Assembly: GCF_014696925.1 (NCBI RefSeq)
Contig: NZ_JACJQY010000009.1
Location: 62,001-126,000 of the forward strand
Source: Phormidium tenue FACHB-1050
GTDB taxonomy: Bacteria; Cyanobacteriota; Cyanobacteriia; Pseudanabaenales; Pseudanabaenaceae
Reading direction: 5' to 3'
DNA length: 64,000 nucleotides
Positions 7,701 through 43,834 of this stretch are shown in pieces. The first letter of the stretch is position 1. Each line of letters begins with the position of its first letter. Position numbers and translations under genes: made by a program. The notes below the pieces were generated by a model, which made no database searches, was not told the DNA's origin, and saw only the letters and a program-made list of their open reading frames with translations.

Positions 7701-10441
7701 TCGAACTCGCCCTCCAAGAAAGTCAAGCCCAATTCCGCCGCATGACAGAAAGTGTACCAGGGATGATTTTTCGCTATGTTTTGCATCTTGATGGTCGTGA
7801 TGAAGCGGTCTATGTCAGCCCCCAAGTACAGCAGATTTATGAACTCACCCCTGAAGAGGTGTGTCAGGACATTAGCTGTCTCTGGGCGAAGGTTCATAAG
7901 GATGATGCTCCGATGATGAAAATGGCTATTGAGAGTTCGGCTGACTCTCTGCACCCCTTTTTAGTCGAAGCGCGTATACTCCTGTTGGGAGAGCGGATGA
8001 AATGGGTACAGATTAGTGCTCAGCCCGATCTCCAAGAGAATGGCGATGTTATTTGGGATGGCGTGGTGATTGATATTAGCGATCGCAAAATTGCTGAGAA
8101 AGCACTGATGCTTAAACAAAAGCATCTCGAAGCGCTGATGAACAATATTCCCCAACATGCTTGGATTAAGGATGAACAAAGTCGGCTTATTGCGGTAAAT
8201 GAACCCTTAGCCCAAGCCTTTGGAGTTTCGGCTGAAGAATTAATCGGGAAAACAGCTTTTGATGTTTGTCCAGTAGACTTAGCGCAAGTTTATCATAACG
8301 GTGATGCTGAGGTATTGCAATCTGGTCAACGCAAAGTGGTTGTAGAGCATAGCAAACGCGCTGATGGCACTTTGGGGTGGTTTGAAACGACCAGAACACC
8401 CTTTCGGGACGATCAGCTAAACATTGCGGGAACGGTGGGAATTGCGGCGGATATTACTGAGCAGAAACAGGCTGAACAGAAATTGCAAGAGCTATCCGAA
8501 CGATTAGAACTAGCAATTCAATCCGCTCAAATTGGCGTTTGGGAATTTGATTTCTCCAATAATCGCCTGTTTTGGGACGAACGGATGCTGGCTATTCATG
8601 GCGTATCGCCCGAAGCATTTCATGGCACTTACGAGGACTGGAGTAGTCGTGTGCATCCCGATGACTTGCCCCATGCCCAGCCCGACATTTTAGAGGAGCA
8701 AGCTATTTACAACACAGAATTCCGCATCATTCGCCCCGATGGTACAGTCCGATGGGTTATGTCGTACTCCTGCAAACAACGCAACCATCAGGGAGAATTA
8801 GTGCGTGCGGTAGGCGTGAATATTGATATTAGCGATCGTAAAAACGCTGAACTTGCACTTCAAGACTTATCAGATCGCCTAGAATTTGCTCTTAAAGGAG
8901 CCAATATTGGTATTTGGGAATATCAAATGAATGAAGAGCGCTTGATCTGGGATGAGCGCATGTTAAGCCTTTATGGAATTTCATCAGAGGAGTTTTCTGG
9001 TAAATATACGGACTGGCTTCAGCGCGTTCATCCCGATGATCTAGATTGGGTTCAGCAGGCTGAACGACAAGCCCATCAAGGAGCTAGAGAATGTCGCGTC
9101 GAATTTCGGATTGTTCGCCCAGATAGCACAATCCGCTTTATCGATTCCTACGCTTTCAAACAATATAACGCCCAAGGTGAAATTTTAAAAACGATTGGAT
9201 TAAACATTGATATTACCGATCGCAAACAGGCAGAAGCGCAACTGCAACACATTAATGAAGAACTGATCAAAGCAACTCGCCTCAAAGATGAGTTTCTTGC
9301 CAATATGAGCCACGAATTACGCACTCCCCTCAACGCCATTTTAGGCATGACGGAAATCCTTCAGGAGGAGATTTTTGGTGACTTAAACGATCGGCAAATG
9401 CAATCTCTCCAAACCATTGAGAAAAGTAGCAACCACCTACTGGAATTGATTAACGATATTCTGGATGTGGCAAAAATCGAAGCGGGGCAAATTCATCTAT
9501 CTTGTCAACCTAGTAATGTAGAAACGCTTTGTCAATCAAGTTTAGTCTTTATTAAGCAACAAGCCTTCAGCAAAAATATTCAACTAGAGTCAGTGATTCC
9601 CGCCAACCTGCCTACCATCAACCTTGATGAACGGCGAATTCGTCAAGTTCTGATTAATCTGCTCAATAATGCTGTCAAATTCACACCGAACGGCGGCAAA
9701 ATCATCCTACAGGTAAACTATATCGAGTTTCTGAATAATGCCGAAATCGTGCAGAGCCGAGCATGTGACACTCTAGAGATTAGCGTCATTGATACTGGCA
9801 TTGGGATTGCGCCAGATCAGATCAAACGGTTATTCCAACCGTTTGTACAGGTTGAGAGCGCCCTCAATCGTAACTACGAAGGTTCGGGACTGGGTTTAGT
9901 CCTCGTCAAGCGCTTGGTTGAGCTGCATGGCGGTGAAGTCAGATTAACCAGTGAATTAGGTGTGGGCAGTTGCTTTACGATCGCGATTCCGAACTCGCCA
10001 TTCTGTGAATTATCCGTTGAGACAGAACCTGCACTTCCGTCTAACTCCGAGGCGATCAAACCTGAAATCGAGGGCGCACCAGTAATTTTACTCGCCGAGG
10101 ATAATGAGTCGAATATCAACCTGTTTGCTGATTATTTGAGTCTCAAGGGCTATCGCTTAGTCATTGCCCACAATGGACAAATGGCGATCGACTTGGCACA
10201 ACAAACCCACCCTGATTTAATTTTAATGGATATTCAAATGCCAGAAATGGATGGATTGGAAGCGATCCAGCACATTCGCCAAATACCTGAGTTAGTCGAT
10301 ACGCCAATCATTGCATTAACCGCACTGGCGATGGCAGGCGATCGCGATCGGTGCATCGCCGTGGGCGCAAATGACTATCTCAGTAAACCAGTGTCACTAA
10401 AGCAGCTAGTCAAAAAAATCAACGACTACTTGACGGACTAG
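4748..10441 (+). CDS. giant multi-PAS hybrid sensor histidine kinase
   Basis: 1897 residues, cytoplasmic by sequence. Order: a CBS-like pair (about 10-140), a GAF domain (about 145-320, containing GVGSCGTAAFRRE), a coiled coil, nine PAS/PAC units (about 345-1500), a HisKA domain with phosphoacceptor His1522 in NMSHELRTPLNAILG, an HATPase domain (about 1625-1750, with DTGIGIAPDQIKRLFQPF and GSGLGLVLVKRL) and a C-terminal receiver with Asp1828 in LILMDIQMPEMDG. Several PAS units end in ISDRK. Units 2, 3 and 6 are near copies of each other, as are 4 and 7, and 8 and 9. Ligands cannot be read from the sequence. No partner regulator is adjacent; the built-in receiver suggests a phosphorelay. Confidence 0.93.
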   Translation: MLSNLEAAIVQNPLVALVEATVLSAVEQMSNLSRQEIDGDNGSSTCVVIISKELKVLGILTQQDVMRLVTQQRSIAKLTLRQFLKQHRSPSDSLIISQSDLRNLRNINAAIAYFESSQITHLAIVDAQEQLVGVLQHESLKRLRDSIIHEATASLFAIQQKIHERIAKAEPLKDVLVDLLQTMETYLRGSSCSITLCMDDRRMGDVIAHSLPPEYARIVSEMGLPIAEGVGSCGTAAFRRELVVVTDIENDPLWQNDKAFVLCYGLQACSSMPIFASDRTLLGTFGIYYREQKAPQAQELDWIAQAAHIAGIAIERDRAIQALQQLNHELENRVQVRTQELQEREQFLQTVLDTFPLSVFWKDVNSVYLGCNQNFLDDAGLQTIAEIIGKTDREMPWGETEADLYRADDQAVIESQTAKLGIVETLHHANGQTIWLETNKLPLRNLQGEVIGVLGTYQDISDRKAVELALQASEAKLRRITESVPGMIYRYVLHPDGRDELVYVSPQVQQIFELTPEVVLQDMSCLWARVHPEDIPIAQSAIQESAVSLQPFFIEERLLLSGNRMKWIHSSSQPTRQENGDITWDGVVMDISDRKAVELALQASEAKFRRITESVPGMIFRYVLHPDGRDELVYVSPQVQQIFELTPEMVLQDMRCLWARFHPEDIPMIQSAIQDSAVSLQSFLVEGRLLLPNERVKWIQVSSQPDRQENGDVIWDGVVIDISDRKAVEKALMLKQKHLKALMNNIPHLAWIKDEQGRVIAVNEPFAQAFGVSSEELVGKTAHDIFPADLAQAYHDDDVEVLQSGQRKVVVERGALADGTLGWFETTKTPFRDDQLNIAGTVGIAANITELKMMELSLKASERRYASLAAAAPVAIFRFDEPLNCVYVNERWSALSGRPMESALGHGWMESVHPEDREQRIAEWAGYYAQSNSEDLVIHGSEGRHLRPDGTTTWCYIQAAKEFDDDGNVVGYIGTLTDITDRKNIELALQESQAQFRRMTESVPGMIFRYVLHLDGRDEAVYVSPQVQQIYELTPEEVCQDISCLWAKVHKDDAPMMKMAIESSADSLHPFLVEARILLLGERMKWVQISAQPDLQENGDVIWDGVVIDISDRKIAEKALMLKQKHLEALMNNIPQHAWIKDEQSRLIAVNEPLAQAFGVSAEELIGKTAFDVCPVDLAQVYHNGDAEVLQSGQRKVVVEHSKRADGTLGWFETTRTPFRDDQLNIAGTVGIAADITEQKQAEQKLQELSERLELAIQSAQIGVWEFDFSNNRLFWDERMLAIHGVSPEAFHGTYEDWSSRVHPDDLPHAQPDILEEQAIYNTEFRIIRPDGTVRWVMSYSCKQRNHQGELVRAVGVNIDISDRKNAELALQDLSDRLEFALKGANIGIWEYQMNEERLIWDERMLSLYGISSEEFSGKYTDWLQRVHPDDLDWVQQAERQAHQGARECRVEFRIVRPDSTIRFIDSYAFKQYNAQGEILKTIGLNIDITDRKQAEAQLQHINEELIKATRLKDEFLANMSHELRTPLNAILGMTEILQEEIFGDLNDRQMQSLQTIEKSSNHLLELINDILDVAKIEAGQIHLSCQPSNVETLCQSSLVFIKQQAFSKNIQLESVIPANLPTINLDERRIRQVLINLLNNAVKFTPNGGKIILQVNYIEFLNNAEIVQSRACDTLEISVIDTGIGIAPDQIKRLFQPFVQVESALNRNYEGSGLGLVLVKRLVELHGGEVRLTSELGVGSCFTIAIPNSPFCELSVETEPALPSNSEAIKPEIEGAPVILLAEDNESNINLFADYLSLKGYRLVIAHNGQMAIDLAQQTHPDLILMDIQMPEMDGLEAIQHIRQIPELVDTPIIALTALAMAGDRDRCIAVGANDYLSKPVSLKQLVKKINDYLTD

Positions 10442-37679: not shown

Positions 37680-38534
37680 CTAAACCACCTCTTTTAGCAT
37701 CCAAAATCCCGCAAAATGTTCTTCATCAGGATTTTTTTGGACTGCTAAGAAATGAAATCCCTGAGAATTTTGTTTAGCTTTCTCAAAGGTGGCTCCTTGG
37801 GCGATCGCTTCTTTATCCTTGGGTGCTAGCAAATTAGCCAAAACCCATTGGGCATCAGCACTTGCTTCTAATTGCATCTGGGTGCGATCGCCTAGTAAGT
37901 TGCGCTCAAATTTGATAAATACAGGATCAACACCTGACATCCAAGCTGCTAGAGCCGTCGCCCTTGACGAAATAATAATAATCCCTGAAATAATTGTGTC
38001 AGGATCAAGATGGCTAATATCAAGCAGTTCGCTAAAGTCCATCGACCATTCCTTTGCTTCGGCAAAATCCCCTGCCTTCAGCGACACCAAGATCCACCGT
38101 TCGCCCGTCAGTGCGTCGGGAACAGGCTTAGGATCTTGGGCTGCTAATACTTTCAATGGCAACGGATTAGGATCAACGGCTTGAAATCCATCACGGTTAG
38201 GATAAATGCTCGCCATTCTCTCCACTAACCAAGCTGACATCGTAAATACGCGACGAGTGGCTTGTCCAGTGATTCCTGCGAGCTTACAACCACGCATAAT
38301 AATATTCGTCATGCTGGGACGGAAAAAGCGGATCTTAATCGGAGTTTGTCCTGTGCTGTTTACGCAGTCGGTGAGTTGCTTGGCTAACCATTCGGAGTTC
38401 ACTTCTGTGGAGGGGCATTCGCGCACCCATTCAACCTGGCGATCTCGATCGCAGATCAGCAATTCCCAAACTTTTTTATTATTGCTATCCAGTAAGGGAC
38501 GGGAATAAAAATCTAACTCCCAAATATTCGACAT
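37680..38534 (-). CDS. Tab2/Atab2 family RNA-binding protein
   Basis: 284 residues. The N-terminal MSNIWELDFYSRPLLD..KKVWELLICD and the central IIMRGCKLAGITGQATRRV are hallmarks of the Tab2/Atab2 family. In Chlamydomonas and Arabidopsis chloroplasts the family is needed for translation of photosystem I psaB mRNA and binds A/U-rich RNA; the cyanobacterial role is less clear. Length and C-terminal GFHFLAVQKNPDEEHFAGFW match the family. Soluble. It may be co-transcribed with the downstream MASE1-GGDEF gene. Confidence 0.88.
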   Translation of the reverse strand: MSNIWELDFYSRPLLDSNNKKVWELLICDRDRQVEWVRECPSTEVNSEWLAKQLTDCVNSTGQTPIKIRFFRPSMTNIIMRGCKLAGITGQATRRVFTMSAWLVERMASIYPNRDGFQAVDPNPLPLKVLAAQDPKPVPDALTGERWILVSLKAGDFAEAKEWSMDFSELLDISHLDPDTIISGIIIISSRATALAAWMSGVDPVFIKFERNLLGDRTQMQLEASADAQWVLANLLAPKDKEAIAQGATFEKAKQNSQGFHFLAVQKNPDEEHFAGFWMLKEVV

Positions 38535-38736
38535 AACTTAATTTCTAACTTGACTTTGTATAACATGGCTTTTTTCATGTTATCGCGATCGCTACCTCTA
38601 GAGTTTTTTAGGTGTGGGATTTTGGCTAGGCGATCGCGAATATAGGCAGTTGTTTCCGCAAGTCCTGCAAAGTAGTGCAGCAAATTAGGATGAGTAGGGG
38701 TTATTCAGAATTTAGTGCAAGGCTAATCCATGTTAA

Positions 38737-38754
38737 TATATCAAATGTGATATA
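38737..38754. promoter_or_regulatory. candidate autoregulatory operator of the higBA locus
   Basis: Perfect inverted repeat TATATCA-AATG-TGATATA ending seven bases before the toxin start. HigA-type antitoxins usually bind such sites to repress their own operon; binding here is inferred. Confidence 0.45.
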
Positions 38755-38761
38755 AAGCAAT

Positions 38762-39095
38762 ATGGACAATCAAAGTAAACCTTTAGTGTGGCTGCATGGA
38801 GAAGTTAAGACTCCGCCTTTCAGTCAAGAAATACGGGTAGAAACAGGTGTTCTACTTAGGCAATTGCAGCAAGGATTGTCTCTCGGATTACCTCATTCTC
38901 GTCCTATGCCAAGTATTCGGAGAAGGCTGTCATGAGTTACGCATTAGAGATGCTGATAAAAACTGGAGAATCATTTATCGAATTGATGATGATGCAATTC
39001 TAATTGTGGAGGTTTTTAACAAATCAACGAGAGCGACTCCCAAGAATGTGATTGAAGTTTGCAAAAAACGCCTTAGTAAATACGATGCTGACTAG
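38762..39095 (+). pseudogene. higB: HigB-like toxin (Gp49/DUF891 family), frameshifted
   Basis: The ATG at 38762 opens MDNQSKPLVWLHGEVKTPPF and runs to SRPMPSI, then the frame shifts by +1. The frame starting at 38919 continues GEGCHELRIRDADKNWRIIY and reaches a stop at 39095 after TPKNVIEVCKKRLSKYDAD. Joined, the two parts give the complete Gp49-like toxin fold of about 110 residues. One extra C at 38918 (in TATTCGGAGAA) accounts for the break. Either the toxin is naturally inactivated, as often in orphaned antitoxin loci, or this is a single-base sequencing error. The antitoxin gene follows 13 bp downstream. Confidence 0.85.
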
Positions 39096-39108
39096 CAGGA
39101 TTAATGCG

Positions 39109-39423
39109 ATGGATTTAGATAAAAGAGCACGTTTGGAGTCTAAGGGCTGGAAGGTCGGTACAGTTTCAGATTTTTTAGAGTTAACACCTGAAGAATCTGT
39201 TTTGGTAGAAATTAAGTTGGCTCTTAGTCAAAGCTTGAAGGAGCGTCGGCAAAAGCTGATGACTCAAAGTGAACTTGCTTCTAAGATGAGTTCTAGTCAG
39301 CCTCGGATCGCTAAAGCTGAAAATGGTGATGCTTCTGTTTCTATTGAGTTATTGATTAGGGCAATGTTGGCGACTGGTGCGACTCCTCAAGATATTGGAC
39401 AGGTTATTGCTGGCGTAGGTTAA
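39109..39423 (+). CDS. higA: HigA-like antitoxin, XRE helix-turn-helix
   Basis: 104 residues starting MDLDKRARLESKGWKVGTVS, the usual opening of antitoxins paired with Gp49-like toxins; an in-frame ATG at 39052 inside the toxin gene is less likely. The C-terminal helix-turn-helix reads LMTQSELASKMSSSQPRIAK followed by ENGDASVSIELLIRAMLATG. It neutralises the toxin and probably represses the operon. The frame is intact although the toxin is broken. Confidence 0.85.
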   Translation: MDLDKRARLESKGWKVGTVSDFLELTPEESVLVEIKLALSQSLKERRQKLMTQSELASKMSSSQPRIAKAENGDASVSIELLIRAMLATGATPQDIGQVIAGVG

Positions 39424-39426
39424 GCG

Positions 39427-39555
39427 ATGGTTGCGGCAAGTCGAGATATGTCGATAGATGCGTTGCTAAAATTTTATATTGGGAATGGGTTGCGCGAAGA
39501 TAAGGCTAAGTTATTTAGCGATCGCAAATCTCTCCACGAAAAAGGCGATCGCTAA
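39427..39555 (+). CDS. possible 42-residue protein fragment after higA
   Basis: ATG three bases after the higA stop; MVAASRDMSIDALLKFYIGN, GLREDKAKLFSDR, then KSLHEKGDR. The N-terminal two thirds look like a truncated small antitoxin-type protein, while the tail is encoded by a GCGATCGC-containing repeat similar to one at 40634-40672. It may be a remnant. Confidence 0.35.
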   Translation: MVAASRDMSIDALLKFYIGNGLREDKAKLFSDRKSLHEKGDR

Positions 39556-39645
39556 GAAATAAATCCCACACAATCACAATATTCATGATTTCATATTTTC
39601 ATTGTAAGATCTAAATTATGAGAGATCTAACATTGAGGTAACAAA

Positions 39646-39870
39646 ATGGAAAATCAATTAATTGTAAGAGATCCTGAAATTCTCTCTGGAATACCTATAT
39701 TTAAGGGAACTAGAGTTCCTGTAAAGAACTTGGTTGATTATCTGGAAGCAGGAGACTCTCTGGAAGAATTTTTAGATGACTTCCCAACTGTGCAGAAAGA
39801 AAAAGTAGTGAAGTTTTTGAATTTATCAATCAAATATTATTTGGCACATGATTATGAAAGTGCTGCTTGA
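39646..39870 (+). CDS. DUF433 domain protein, antitoxin-like
   Basis: 74 residues, the normal size of DUF433. The signature LSGIPIFKGTRVPVKNLVDYLEAG is complete, followed by a helix-turn-helix-like DDFPTVQKEKVVKFL. DUF433 proteins are usually the antitoxin partner of a DUF5615 PIN-like toxin encoded just downstream with a short overlap. Here only a stump of that toxin is left (39854-39898). Confidence 0.88.
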   Translation: MENQLIVRDPEILSGIPIFKGTRVPVKNLVDYLEAGDSLEEFLDDFPTVQKEKVVKFLNLSIKYYLAHDYESAA

Positions 39871-39898
39871 TGAGTGCTTGCCCAAAAATTTTCCCTAA
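39854..39898 (+). pseudogene. stump of a DUF5615 PIN-like toxin
   Basis: The ATG at 39854 overlaps the end of the DUF433 gene by 17 bases, as expected for this pair, and encodes MKVLLDECLPKNFP then a stop. MKxLLDECLP is the conserved opening of DUF5615 toxins, which normally run to about 110-120 residues. The rest is gone; the next sequence is the 3' end of the convergent PIN gene, whose stop overlaps this one. Confidence 0.6.
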
Positions 39899-40302
39899 AT
39901 CCGTGAACTTTCTTCATAGGCTTGAAAATCTACAGGGGCAATAATATCAATATTCTCGAATCGGGCAATCGCTAACAAATCTTTATCTCCCGTAACGATA
40001 CATTGAGCTTTACCTGCCAAAGCTGTTGCCAAAATCCAATCATCATCAATATCTCGACATACTTGCTGCTCTAATGGAGATGGGATAACTATTTCCATCT
40101 TTGAGCAAAATATTGATAAAGCTTCATTTATATCTTCTGTCTTATACTTGAATTTCTTTTGGAGTTTTTCTGCGAGTTCATCCAGTATAAATTTGGAGGA
40201 AATAATTTCATGAACTTTGAGCGAGTTTTCTACAAGTGCATAACATTTACCTCTAGAGATCAGTGATGCTATTAAAACATTGGTATCAAGAACTATTCTC
40301 AT
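39895..40302 (-). CDS. PIN-domain toxin (VapC-like ribonuclease)
   Basis: 135 residues. MRIVLDTNVLIASLISRGKC carries the first acidic residue (Asp6), later ones are in LDELAEKL, CRDIDDDWILATAL and IVTGDKDLL, making the four-acid PIN active site. This subtype (putative toxin-antitoxin system toxin component) cleaves RNA when free of its antitoxin. The antitoxin gene is immediately upstream with a 4-nt ATGA overlap. Confidence 0.9.
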   Translation of the reverse strand: MRIVLDTNVLIASLISRGKCYALVENSLKVHEIISSKFILDELAEKLQKKFKYKTEDINEALSIFCSKMEIVIPSPLEQQVCRDIDDDWILATALAGKAQCIVTGDKDLLAIARFENIDIIAPVDFQAYEESSRI

Positions 40303-40517
40303 GACACCATTTCAAAGATATCTTCATCAGTAAATCCACCTTGCAGGTCAGCTTGTTTAAGCATTTTTTCGCGTAATGTTTGCAATCTACGCACTAAAAG
40401 ATATTCGCGAACTGCGCGTTCGATGAGTTCGAGAGATGAGATTGCTTCAATCTGCGATCGCGCTTCGAGTGAATCTCTGACATCGGCTGGTAAGTTTAGA
40501 GTGATAGCTTCTTGCAT
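40299..40517 (-). CDS. antitoxin of the PIN toxin
   Basis: 72 residues from the ATG at 40517 (MQEAITLNLPADVRDSLEAR); an ATG five codons upstream is possible. The N-terminal strand-helix pattern fits a ribbon-helix-helix DNA-binding domain, and the C-terminal tail LQGGFTDEDIFEMVS would wrap the toxin. Its stop overlaps the toxin start by four bases, indicating translational coupling. Confidence 0.82.
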   Translation of the reverse strand: MQEAITLNLPADVRDSLEARSQIEAISSLELIERAVREYLLVRRLQTLREKMLKQADLQGGFTDEDIFEMVS

Positions 40518-40683
40518 GGAAGTTAAAAGCATTGGTTGTCTTTATTTTAGCAAAGTGGGTAATGTCGTCTGGTCGCTTTTGCTGCCATTGTTGTTATCGC
40601 TCTTCACCGTGTTTAGTCTAAATAATATTCATGGCGATCGCTAATCTCTCCATAAAAATCGCGATCGCTTAAAGTAAAATCAT

Positions 40684-43284
40684 TTATTTAAGGAGATCAG
40701 CAATTAATTTAGTACAAACCATTGGATTCTTCTTTGCATATTCATTAAAAAATCGAATAGTAGGAACTCCAAGATTAGCAATTTGACTCATTCTAAGATT
40801 ATCTTTATCAATTTGTTCCTGATCATTAAAATGTTGATGCCCGTCTACTTCTACAACGCATAATTTTTTAGATTCATGATTGAAACATATGAAATCAGCC
40901 TTATAGTATTTGTCAATTTTAACTTGACGTAATACTTCTAGCTCCGAATTTAAAATTTTGTTATATAGCTCATCCTCTCCTGCTCCTATCAAGTGACTAT
41001 TAATTTTAATTTCTCTGCCTTTACTAATTTGCCAGCCTTTAGCACGACAAACAATAGACATACTAAATTTTTTATAAAACAACTTATGGCGTATCCAAAC
41101 ACCTATCCACAAAGCCGCAACATAAACAATGAAATTACTGCCAACAAATATATCTATAGACACCAATAAAATTGATGGAAAAATGTGATTCCAAAATTTA
41201 ACTGTTGGGATATGTCCAGCATTGGGGCGAGTAGCAGGGTAAATTCTATAGTTTTCTTTTTGTAAAATTGTTTGATTAGAATTTACTGTAGAAGATATTG
41301 AACTTACTCTATTATTTTTAGCAGGTATATTATTAGACTGATTTACTTTAGTTTGTACAACTGAAAATATTCTTCCATCTTGTAATATTTTTTGCCAATC
41401 AGTGACTTGTATAGGTATCGAATATCCATCAAACCTTGCAATCAGTCGTTGGTCATCCATATCAATAATCTGTCCAATACCTTGAGCGTAATCTGGAATA
41501 GATACAAAGCTACCTATTTTCAGCCATTTAGGAATAGTTTGTTTTATTGTTGGAGTAGCATTAATTGGATTTGGTGAGGACTTAGGCGAAGACTTATTAT
41601 TTGTTAGATCAATTACGCTTGCAATTAATTTCCAGCAACGCTTCTCGCCTTTCCAGTCTGGAGCTGCCCAAGGCATATTTAAACTTACGACTACAAGACA
41701 GTTTTCATTGGGTAAATAACCTTCATCTAGCTTCTTAATAAAAACTGGATCTGTAATGGTCATATTTTCTGATGTTTGACCATTAGCAAGTTCAATTGAA
41801 CCTTTCCATTTTCGGTTACTATTTCCACTAGAGAACACAGAAAATTTTTTAGGCTGAACTAGTTGTACAGTATGACGTTTCTCTGCTGGCAAAGCTTTTA
41901 TCTCAGAAGGACTAACATATTTTAAAGAGTTATGAAGTATATAAGGAAAGTCTTTATAATAAGCAAGTAGATCGCTTGGACTTGCTTTTCCTAATAATTT
42001 CCATTTACCAGATGAGATTGAAATGTTTTCTGATTGAAATCCAAAGTCTTTGCCTGTATTAGCTAGAGGAATTTCTAATATGTCTAGTAACTCTGGTTCT
42101 CTTCCTTGTATAAGTCTAATTTCTCGTGAAACTCGACCATCTTCAGGGTACAAATCATCACATACGGGACGTACCCATTTACCAGTTTTAATGTCAATTC
42201 CAGATATACAGCGTTCTGTCTCTTTCCAAGAATTTTCCAGACAAATTATTTGTCTTGTTCCAAGATTATTAGAAGATATTGTTTTTGCTGTTTGTTGATT
42301 TGGAGTAGTAGAAATTGATACTCGATTCTGTGTTTTTAATTCTGACGCTTTAAAACTATAGAAGCCAGAAGTATTGCCAGTAATTGAGACCACCTGTCTA
42401 ATACCTAATTCCTGCAAAATCTCTGTAGCAGAAGTTGGTCTTTCCTTTACCCTATAAGCAGTAAGTCGATCCAATAACTTCCCAAAATTATCGCTAACGG
42501 TTCTTCCATGCAAAAACTGTTGCCATTGATATTCATTTTCCAAAACGTCATAGAGCGTAAACGGTTCCACATTCGTGAGCAAATGCAAACAAGTCACGCC
42601 CAACCCAAACAAATCACTCTGAAACACCGACTTACCCAACATTTGCTCAGGAGCGCCATAACTCGGCTTTCCGATGCCCGTCCCCGTCTTTGCCAATAAC
42701 GTCGCCGTTGCGTGCTTTGCCGCCCCAAAATCTACCAGCACCAACTTTTGATCACTGCGCCGCCGAATAATATTGTCTGGCGAAATATCGCGATGAATTA
42801 CCGACTTGCCATGCACAAACTCCAAAATTTGCAGCACCTCCACCAACACATCCCGCACCTGCTGCTCACTAAAAGCACCAACTCGCGCTAGTTCCTGCTC
42901 CAAAGTCTCACCATCGATAAACTCTTGGATGAGGTACTGCTTCCCCTCATGAATTGTAAAAGATAGAAGTTCAGGAATTTGGGGATGCTTACCCAAATCA
43001 TCGAGCCGCTTTGCCTCCTGCTCAAATAACCTGACTGCGACATCCAAAGTTCCTTGACTCGCATTAGGATTAATCGTTTCAAAAGCAAATTGCTTAATCA
43101 CACAACGCGGCTGTGATGGCTTCGACTCATCCTGAGCCAAGAAAGTCTTACCAAATCCCCCCTGTCCAATTACCTTCAAAGCGCGATAACGCTCTTGAAT
43201 TTGTAACTTAGCGCCGCATTGAGTACAAAATTTGGTTGTTATTGGGTTTAAGCGATCGCAAGCAAGACAAAGACAGTTAATCAT
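40684..43284 (-). CDS. Ser/Thr kinase fused to dual-OB-like and Vsr/DUF559-like nuclease domains
   Basis: 866 residues. Zinc ribbon (C6xxC9, C20xxC23), then a Ser/Thr kinase (about 35-292) with glycine loop GQGGFGKTF, Lys64, HRDISPDN (Asp166) and DFGAAK (Asp185): all catalytic residues are present. Residues about 343-560 (RQIICLENS, SGIDIKTGKWVRPVCDDLYP, DILEIPLAN) resemble the dual-OB domain seen in defence-linked proteins; 588-645 is a small SH3-like domain. A hydrophobic segment at 702-732 follows. The C-terminus (about 755-866) has KADFICF (Asp797), VVEVDGHQHF (Glu812, Asp814) and GVPTIRFFNE, the pattern of Vsr-like DUF559/DUF2726 endonucleases. It lies beside two toxin-antitoxin loci. 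Function unknown; a phosphorylation-controlled nuclease is inferred. Confidence 0.85.
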   Translation of the reverse strand: MINCLCLACDRLNPITTKFCTQCGAKLQIQERYRALKVIGQGGFGKTFLAQDESKPSQPRCVIKQFAFETINPNASQGTLDVAVRLFEQEAKRLDDLGKHPQIPELLSFTIHEGKQYLIQEFIDGETLEQELARVGAFSEQQVRDVLVEVLQILEFVHGKSVIHRDISPDNIIRRRSDQKLVLVDFGAAKHATATLLAKTGTGIGKPSYGAPEQMLGKSVFQSDLFGLGVTCLHLLTNVEPFTLYDVLENEYQWQQFLHGRTVSDNFGKLLDRLTAYRVKERPTSATEILQELGIRQVVSITGNTSGFYSFKASELKTQNRVSISTTPNQQTAKTISSNNLGTRQIICLENSWKETERCISGIDIKTGKWVRPVCDDLYPEDGRVSREIRLIQGREPELLDILEIPLANTGKDFGFQSENISISSGKWKLLGKASPSDLLAYYKDFPYILHNSLKYVSPSEIKALPAEKRHTVQLVQPKKFSVFSSGNSNRKWKGSIELANGQTSENMTITDPVFIKKLDEGYLPNENCLVVVSLNMPWAAPDWKGEKRCWKLIASVIDLTNNKSSPKSSPNPINATPTIKQTIPKWLKIGSFVSIPDYAQGIGQIIDMDDQRLIARFDGYSIPIQVTDWQKILQDGRIFSVVQTKVNQSNNIPAKNNRVSSISSTVNSNQTILQKENYRIYPATRPNAGHIPTVKFWNHIFPSILLVSIDIFVGSNFIVYVAALWIGVWIRHKLFYKKFSMSIVCRAKGWQISKGREIKINSHLIGAGEDELYNKILNSELEVLRQVKIDKYYKADFICFNHESKKLCVVEVDGHQHFNDQEQIDKDNLRMSQIANLGVPTIRFFNEYAKKNPMVCTKLIADLLK

Positions 43285-43393
43285 GCTGAATGAAATTTTC
43301 TGGAAAGCTACCTTTGATAATTATGACATTTAGATAGGATGATAGTCCACATCGATTACCTCAAAGCGATCGCTCGTGTACAAATAAACTCAA

Positions 43394-43434
43394 ACAAAAA
43401 AGAGGAGCAAACAATGTTTGCTCCTCTTTTTTGT
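43394..43434 (-). terminator. terminator of petE
   Basis: Perfect 19-bp stem (43394-43412 / 43416-43434) around AAT, core AGAGGAGCAAAC/GTTTGCTCCTCT with flanking A- and T-tracts, 26 bp downstream of the petE stop. Confidence 0.85.
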
Positions 43435-43459: not shown

Positions 43460-43834
43460 CTATTGGACAACCACTTTGCCTGCCATACCAGCACCACGGT
43501 GAGGAGAGCAGTAGTAAGCAAATTCACCAGCTTCATTGAAGGTGGACTCTAGCTCAGCCTTAGGCTTTTGAGCTAACTTCTTGTGAGAAAGTTCTTCATG
43601 ACCATCAAACACAATGTTGTGAGGGAAAGCTTTGTTATTAACCCATTTAACAGTGTCGCCAACTTTGATTGTGACTACCTTAGGATCAAATACTAGCTGA
43701 CCACCATCAGAACCCATCTTCACAGTGACGGTATCCGCCGACGCAGGAGAAGCAGTGATGAACAAGCTACCAACAACAAACAAAAGGCTAGCGATCGCTA
43801 GACCTAGCTTTTTCGCAAAGGAAGAAATATTCAT
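43460..43834 (-). CDS. petE: plastocyanin
   Basis: 124 residues: signal peptide (about 1-33, ending ASPASA) for export to the thylakoid lumen, then a mature type I copper protein of about 91 residues. Copper ligands are His72 (AFPHNIVF), Cys109 (YYCSPH), His112 and Met117 (GAGM). It carries electrons from cytochrome b6f to photosystem I or cytochrome oxidase. Length and motifs are standard. petE is usually copper-induced; no regulatory site is evident. psbV lies 147 bp upstream on the same strand. Confidence 0.97.
   Translation of the reverse strand: MNISSFAKKLGLAIASLLFVVGSLFITASPASADTVTVKMGSDGGQLVFDPKVVTIKVGDTVKWVNNKAFPHNIVFDGHEELSHKKLAQKPKAELESTFNEAGEFAYYCSPHRGAGMAGKVVVQ

Follow-up and report, generated by a model that had tools for sequence, protein, structure and literature searches.

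The kinases of multicellular cyanobacteria are numerous, and most of them are without known function. Polymorphic toxins join a constant N-terminus to an exchangeable C-terminus, and integron cassette arrays consist of shuffled small genes, many of them toxin-antitoxin genes, which are separated by a repeat in a fixed orientation. Zhang et al. (2007, PMC2176072) surveyed the Ser/Thr kinases of cyanobacteria and listed 14 additional domain types, with GUN4 and DUF323/FGE among the C-terminal domains and with no nuclease or DuOB domain; the phylogenies of tail and catalytic domain often disagreed, and the authors suggested that the additional domains had been recruited laterally. Cyanobacterial kinases that are diversified by diversity-generating retroelements (DGRs) and that have C-terminal CLec domains have also been described (PMC7517822). 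The 866-amino-acid (aa) protein analysed here has, like the cbSTKII kinases, a Hanks-type kinase followed by a C-terminal module; the cbSTKII account (PMC2176072), however, is without one orthologous head that bears interchangeable tails in a repeat-bearing island. In the DGR-diversified kinases, too, the kinase is joined to a C-terminal ligand-binding domain that varies and that may be compared with the FGE tails in relatives of our protein; their tails, however, are point-mutated, whereas behind the Pseudanabaena heads whole tails appear to be replaced. A constant head with exchanged tails is shared with the polymorphic toxins; the Pseudanabaena head, however, is a kinase and not a secretion or delivery domain, and no immunity gene was recognised at the island. 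Shuffled toxin-antitoxin genes and a fixed-orientation repeat occur both in integron arrays and in the Pseudanabaena island, but the island repeat is a HIP1-bounded hairpin that does not look like integron attC, and no integrase was seen in the island. New in comparison with these systems are the DuOB-nuclease tail, which is unique so far, and the evidence for one orthologous head with exchanged tails in a small repeat-bearing island.

The gene lies at 43284..40684 (minus strand) of the window (the whole stretch of DNA that was analysed, 64,000 nucleotides), within a 150-kb contig of the 5.6-Mb genome of a pond cyanobacterium, and its open reading frame encodes 866 aa from an ATG start. The order of the domains is Hanks-type kinase, DuOB, hydrophobic segment and DUF559/Vsr-fold nuclease domain. 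The constant kinase head (residues 1-293; 42406..43284, minus strand; assigned with Pfam and the orthologues) consists of an N-terminal zinc-ribbon-like motif, which is a weak match below the Pfam cut-off, and the Hanks-type kinase (Pkinase match at residues 33-291, E 2.4e-33), of which the motifs are complete (G-loop from residue 39, K64, HRD at 164-166, DFG at 185-187). According to tblastn and the ORF translations, a linker (residues 294-343; 42256..42405, minus strand) that is common to the GUN4-tailed orthologues follows, and the 5' junction of the tail is at about residue 343; GC3, which is 0.46 in the head, is lower in the tail (0.15-0.22, about 0.2). As in the definition of cbSTKII, the protein has a Hanks-type catalytic domain, at least one additional domain and no histidine kinase; DuOB and DUF559 are outside the 14 additional types of the 2007 list, which is a description and not a strict requirement (PMC2176072).

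The nuclease domain (residues 768-866; 40687..40983, minus strand) was assigned from Pfam, an alignment, a structural model and structural matches. The DUF559 profile matched residues 771-862 (E 2e-8, 34.5 bits with a cut-off of 20.6), and E770, D797, E812, D814, H818, D828 and R831 were invariant in an alignment of 23 sequences (the 866-aa protein and 22 DUF559 proteins). In the AlphaFold2 model of residues 684-866 the core is ordered alpha-bbb-alpha-b, and its pLDDT values are mostly about 90 or higher; the best structural match was the DUF559-type structure 3hrl (Z 11.0, rmsd 1.6 over 87 residues), and further matches were the homing nuclease I-Bth0305I (Z 9.6) and Vsr (Z 8.2). The domain thus has the same fold and catalytic residues as the DUF559/Vsr-like nucleases (3hrl; Vsr, 1cw0; I-Bth0305I, 3r3p), but unlike them it is fused behind a kinase, DuOB and a hydrophobic segment. 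The single hydrophobic stretch of the protein, at about residues 701-731 (41092..41184, minus strand; hydropathy), is perhaps a membrane hairpin (model helices at 695-708 and 717-748), and residues 584-649 (41338..41535, minus strand) are a relative of DEAD-box helicase N-termini, with 35-41% identity in matches of 56-68 aa. The preliminary description had read the chain as kinase, OB-like region, membrane segment and Vsr-like nuclease with Asp797, Glu812 and Asp814, had set structure prediction as a check on the nuclease, and knew of no characterised system with this architecture. The arrangement in one chain was borne out by Pfam, hydropathy and the complete kinase motifs; the three residues are conserved along with E770; and in the prediction both the fold, which matches 3hrl, and the active-site residues are present. 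The statement on novelty is consistent with the literature searched, which held no paper on DuOB with an OB-fold, on PDC-M45, or on a kinase with DUF559 in defence, and with the 2007 survey, which has no nuclease (PMC2176072).

A joint alignment of the whole tail was set aside because the DUF559 rows were misplaced. The 386 genomes of the phylum contained no relative of the whole tail, only DUF559 parts, and the viral contigs contained no relative of residues 679-866; plasmids had no DNA match to the tail, and the plasmid search with the tail gave two weak helicase matches. As a separate observation, a DUF559 gene is inserted in frame in a type I restriction HsdR-like protein at two loci, L046 (G000 contig C19, 59634-62864) and L041 (G246 C82); the insertion lies before the helicase P-loop, with flanking repeats that read SPSPTGRGARGEG, and thus places a second nuclease inside HsdR.

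The DuOB domain (residues 345-557; 41614..42252, minus strand) was identified with Pfam PF22557 (E 2.7e-42), and the pLDDT of its AlphaFold2 model is mostly above 90; the PADLOC profile PDC-M45A also matches the 866-aa protein (E 4.2e-24). The structural neighbours of the model were HIN-200 domains, other OB folds and BrxL, mostly nucleic-acid binders; since all of these matches are weak (Z below 8), we take only an OB-type arrangement to be supported. The domain is up to 57% identical to that of the nearest DuOB proteins. Elsewhere DuOB occurs mostly in proteins of 220-300 aa (291 cyanobacteria), and in viral contigs as distant relatives only. In the loci inspected, DUF488 genes nearly always adjoin the cyanobacterial DuOB genes; no DUF488 gene is near the 866-aa ORF, and the single one of the genome is on another contig. 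The DUF488-DUF488-DuOB clusters (PADLOC PDC-M45A) have the DuOB domain in common with our protein, but differ in their adjacent DUF488 genes. The stand-alone cyanobacterial DuOB genes (L002-L028) lie nearly always 3' of a DUF488 gene or of two such genes; the cluster is conserved and corresponds to the PADLOC candidate PDC-M45. Among the stand-alone genes are two DuOB variants with extra C-terminal parts (WD40-like in L022).

The gene is probably one allele of a Ser/Thr kinase whose head is constant and whose tail is exchangeable, because a near-identical head is found on unrelated tails, at the same petE locus with different tails and at other loci, because empty sites exist, and because an island-specific repeat lies on the kinase strand wherever both were seen, with toxin-antitoxin genes around. 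Close orthologues of residues 1 to ~345 are present across Pseudanabaena (one copy each, at 86% or above, in 17 of the 26 genomes), and over residues 25-250 the DNA of the head is 94-96% identical to that of each head-bearing genome compared, near or far. The tails behind it are FGE-sulfatase domains (L049, L052, L056, L057, L058 and L060), two GUN4 domains (L050 and L061) or one GUN4 domain (L051 and L054, and L069 by sequence); a TPR-GUN4 ORF lies behind an IS-interrupted head in L053, and the heads of L079 and L080 are truncated. Among these orthologues the DuOB and nuclease tail was found solely in the gene of the window; the nuclease-tailed form is represented by one genome, a point against this explanation. 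The interruption in L053 (Pseudanabaena sp. SR411) is an IS5-like transposase gene at 8716-9627, between the kinase and the TPR-GUN4 tail. The FGE-sulfatase tails of L049, L052, L057, L058 and L060 end in a variable stretch of the kind targeted by diversity-generating retroelements.

By comparison with empty petE-Tab2 intervals, the variable island, with kinase, tail and toxin-antitoxin genes, was placed at 38600..43385 (minus strand), between petE (plastocyanin-like; 43460..43834, minus strand; Pfam) and Tab2 (37680..38534, minus strand; Pfam). Similarity to the empty interval is lost at 43381-43396 and starts again at about 38536-38627, and the L058 copy, at another locus, shares sequence from 43385 on; these borders give an island of about 4.8 kb. 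The head is behind petE in the window, L053, L055, L061 and L080; the heads of G130, G144, G185, G199 and G213 have another common upstream region (which in G144 includes a gene for an S1-like ribosomal protein), and the remaining heads are at still other loci. In G206, G108 and G246, petE and Tab2 are 0.3-0.8 kb apart and the head is on another contig or locus, and in G117 and G023 the close petE-Tab2 pair is present with no near-identical head. The neighbours named in the preliminary description, HigBA, DUF433 and PIN, were all confirmed with Pfam: a HigB-like (Gp49) toxin (38847..39095, plus strand), a HigA-like HTH_3 antitoxin (39052..39423, plus strand), a DUF433 gene (39646..39870, plus strand) and a PIN-domain toxin-like gene (PIN_3; 39895..40302, minus strand), the last paired with a putative antitoxin (40299..40532, minus strand; an ORF with no Pfam match). 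The DUF433 gene is at least 93% identical in 11 of 25 genomes and is less than 7 kb from the head in nine of these 11, though the loci differ. The PIN gene is 99% identical in DNA to L061:11208-11615, while the flanking genes of the two species are 81-91% identical, which indicates that the PIN gene moved recently.

It is unlikely that the gene encodes a dedicated anti-phage effector, a form of the defence effector suggested in the preliminary description, in which infection would activate the kinase and phosphorylation would license cleavage by the predicted nuclease tail. The toxin-antitoxin neighbours would suit such an effector, but these genes flank the head whatever its tail and are therefore uninformative on the nuclease form; in the same way, the active-site residues of kinase and nuclease are intact, but the head is common to the GUN4 and FGE forms and is not nuclease-specific. 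DuOB proteins are PADLOC candidates (PDC-M45A), a point in favour, whereas the scores with another PADLOC profile, PD-T4-6, are generic: it matched the 866-aa protein at E 3e-109 and a paralogous FGE-tailed kinase, which served as control, at E 1.4e-120. Because this paralogue scores higher, the PD-T4-6 match is no evidence of defence, and assignment to defence by PADLOC score was rejected.

To return to the constant head with an exchangeable tail, the repeat of the island is 35 nt long (GCGATCGC-N19-GCGATCGC), HIP1-bounded and conserved in its interior. Copy 1 (40634..40668, minus strand) begins 15 nt after the stop codon of the kinase gene, copy 2 is at 39518..39552 (minus strand), and these two were the only matches in a search of the 5.6-Mb genome with three mismatches allowed. 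The 25 genomes contained 17 copies, of which 13 were less than 8 kb from the kinase head, all 13 on the strand of the head, and the other four were beside Tab2 or DUF433; the reversed-sequence control gave no matches in the 25 genomes. The flanks of the repeat reassort: a given left flank was seen with three different right flanks, and a given right flank with two different left ones. As single-stranded DNA, both repeats of the window form a hairpin in which the two HIP1 octamers pair with each other (equalled by 4/200 and 3/200 shuffles). There was no Rfam match to the repeat, and by inspection no GTTRRRY core, as compared with integron attC. Counting against the exchange reading, the repeat borders only the 3' side of the tail, no site was seen at the 5' junction of the tail, and no recombinase or integrase is among the island genes of the window. 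In three islands (L049, L057 and L172) the repeat closely follows Y1_Tnp genes, and it was considered as the end of a REP-associated (RAYT) transposase; relatives of these transposases elsewhere, however, carry a different palindrome (GTAGGGGCAGAGC...), and thus the repeat was not taken as theirs. A GTAG-type palindrome (GTAGGGGCAGAGCATT...) was found 3' of RAYT-like transposase genes in several genomes (L060:10073-10109 and L196-L201) and also in some kinase islands. In the pooled Pseudanabaena loci, pairs of adjacent HIP1 octamers are also concentrated at spacings of 22, 41 and 43 nt, possible marks of further repeat families.

The head is less diverged than its surroundings: neighbour genes at the same locus in L055 and L061 are 81-91% identical in DNA, as against the 94-96% of the head. 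At fourfold-degenerate sites the mean divergence was 0.173 for the head and 0.556 for Tab2, that is, about a third, and the head was the less diverged in 105 of 105 pairs (15 genomes); Tab2 is the single vertical gene compared across all genomes, which counts against the exchange reading. The two divergences were hardly correlated (Pearson 0.33), and the head of G076, a close genome, is no nearer than those of distant genomes. Tails of the same class differ at 0.36-0.85 of the fourfold sites, and their heads at 0.12-0.24. G124 and G239, with double-GUN4 tails at different loci, are the exception: these tails differ at 0.13 while the heads differ at 0.23, which looks like a tail passed between loci. 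By these sequence comparisons, the head has had another history than the tail. The tree of the head is star-like, with no supported branches, and a four-gamete and neighbour-compatibility test was negative for the head and Tab2 alike and thus speaks neither for nor against recombination inside the head.

We consider it quite improbable that the gene is an ordinary cyanobacterial kinase with a chance domain gain, the low divergence of the head reflecting codon constraint and the changes of locus reflecting rearrangements: recruitment of C-terminal domains is known in cyanobacterial kinases (PMC2176072) and the head tree is without resolution, but the divergence of the head hardly tracks that of the species (as the correlation and G076 show), and the empty sites and the orientation-fixed repeat would be left unexplained. 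Still less probable is a recent functionless chimaera or an assembly error, which the occurrence in one genome only and the sharply different composition of the tail might suggest, but which is at odds with an open frame of 866 codons within a 150-kb contig, with the retention of DuOB and all nuclease motifs, and with a fusion point at which the linker shared by the orthologues meets the start of DuOB.

Under the reading of a constant head with an exchangeable tail, recombination of the conserved head with downstream sequence, either the repeat or shared genes, would replace the tail, and the island would spread between species. In the protein, DuOB would be the sensing part and may sense or bind a nucleic acid or nucleotide, the hydrophobic segment would be a membrane anchor, and a single stress or defence sensor would have the kinase and the nuclease as its coupled outputs. 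As the most likely scheme, put forward tentatively, the bound state of the tail and the autophosphorylation of the kinase would control each other and the nuclease; the assumed role of the GUN4 and FGE tails is that of sensors, and a nuclease tail may follow a different principle. A defence function of the nuclease-tailed kinase is possible from its sequence, and a stress response is equally so; the two are not told apart by the PADLOC scores. It is conceivable, although rather doubtful, that the island is a hitherto undescribed cassette-exchange island of Pseudanabaena, in which the constant kinase head comes first, the tail and the following toxin-antitoxin genes are the cassettes, recombination takes place at the HIP1-bounded hairpin repeat, which keeps a fixed orientation, and the nuclease tail is one of a pool that re-aims one kinase.

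Natural exchange of tails behind one head amounts to an experiment that is already prepared: the catalytic domain is the same, the input or output differs, and the contribution of the tail can be compared. The nuclease-tailed form raises the question of whether a nuclease can be switched in cis by phosphorylation. Exchange can be tested directly by means of the repeat and the empty sites, which may also reveal a shuffling of toxin-antitoxin and signalling genes in cyanobacteria without a known integrase.
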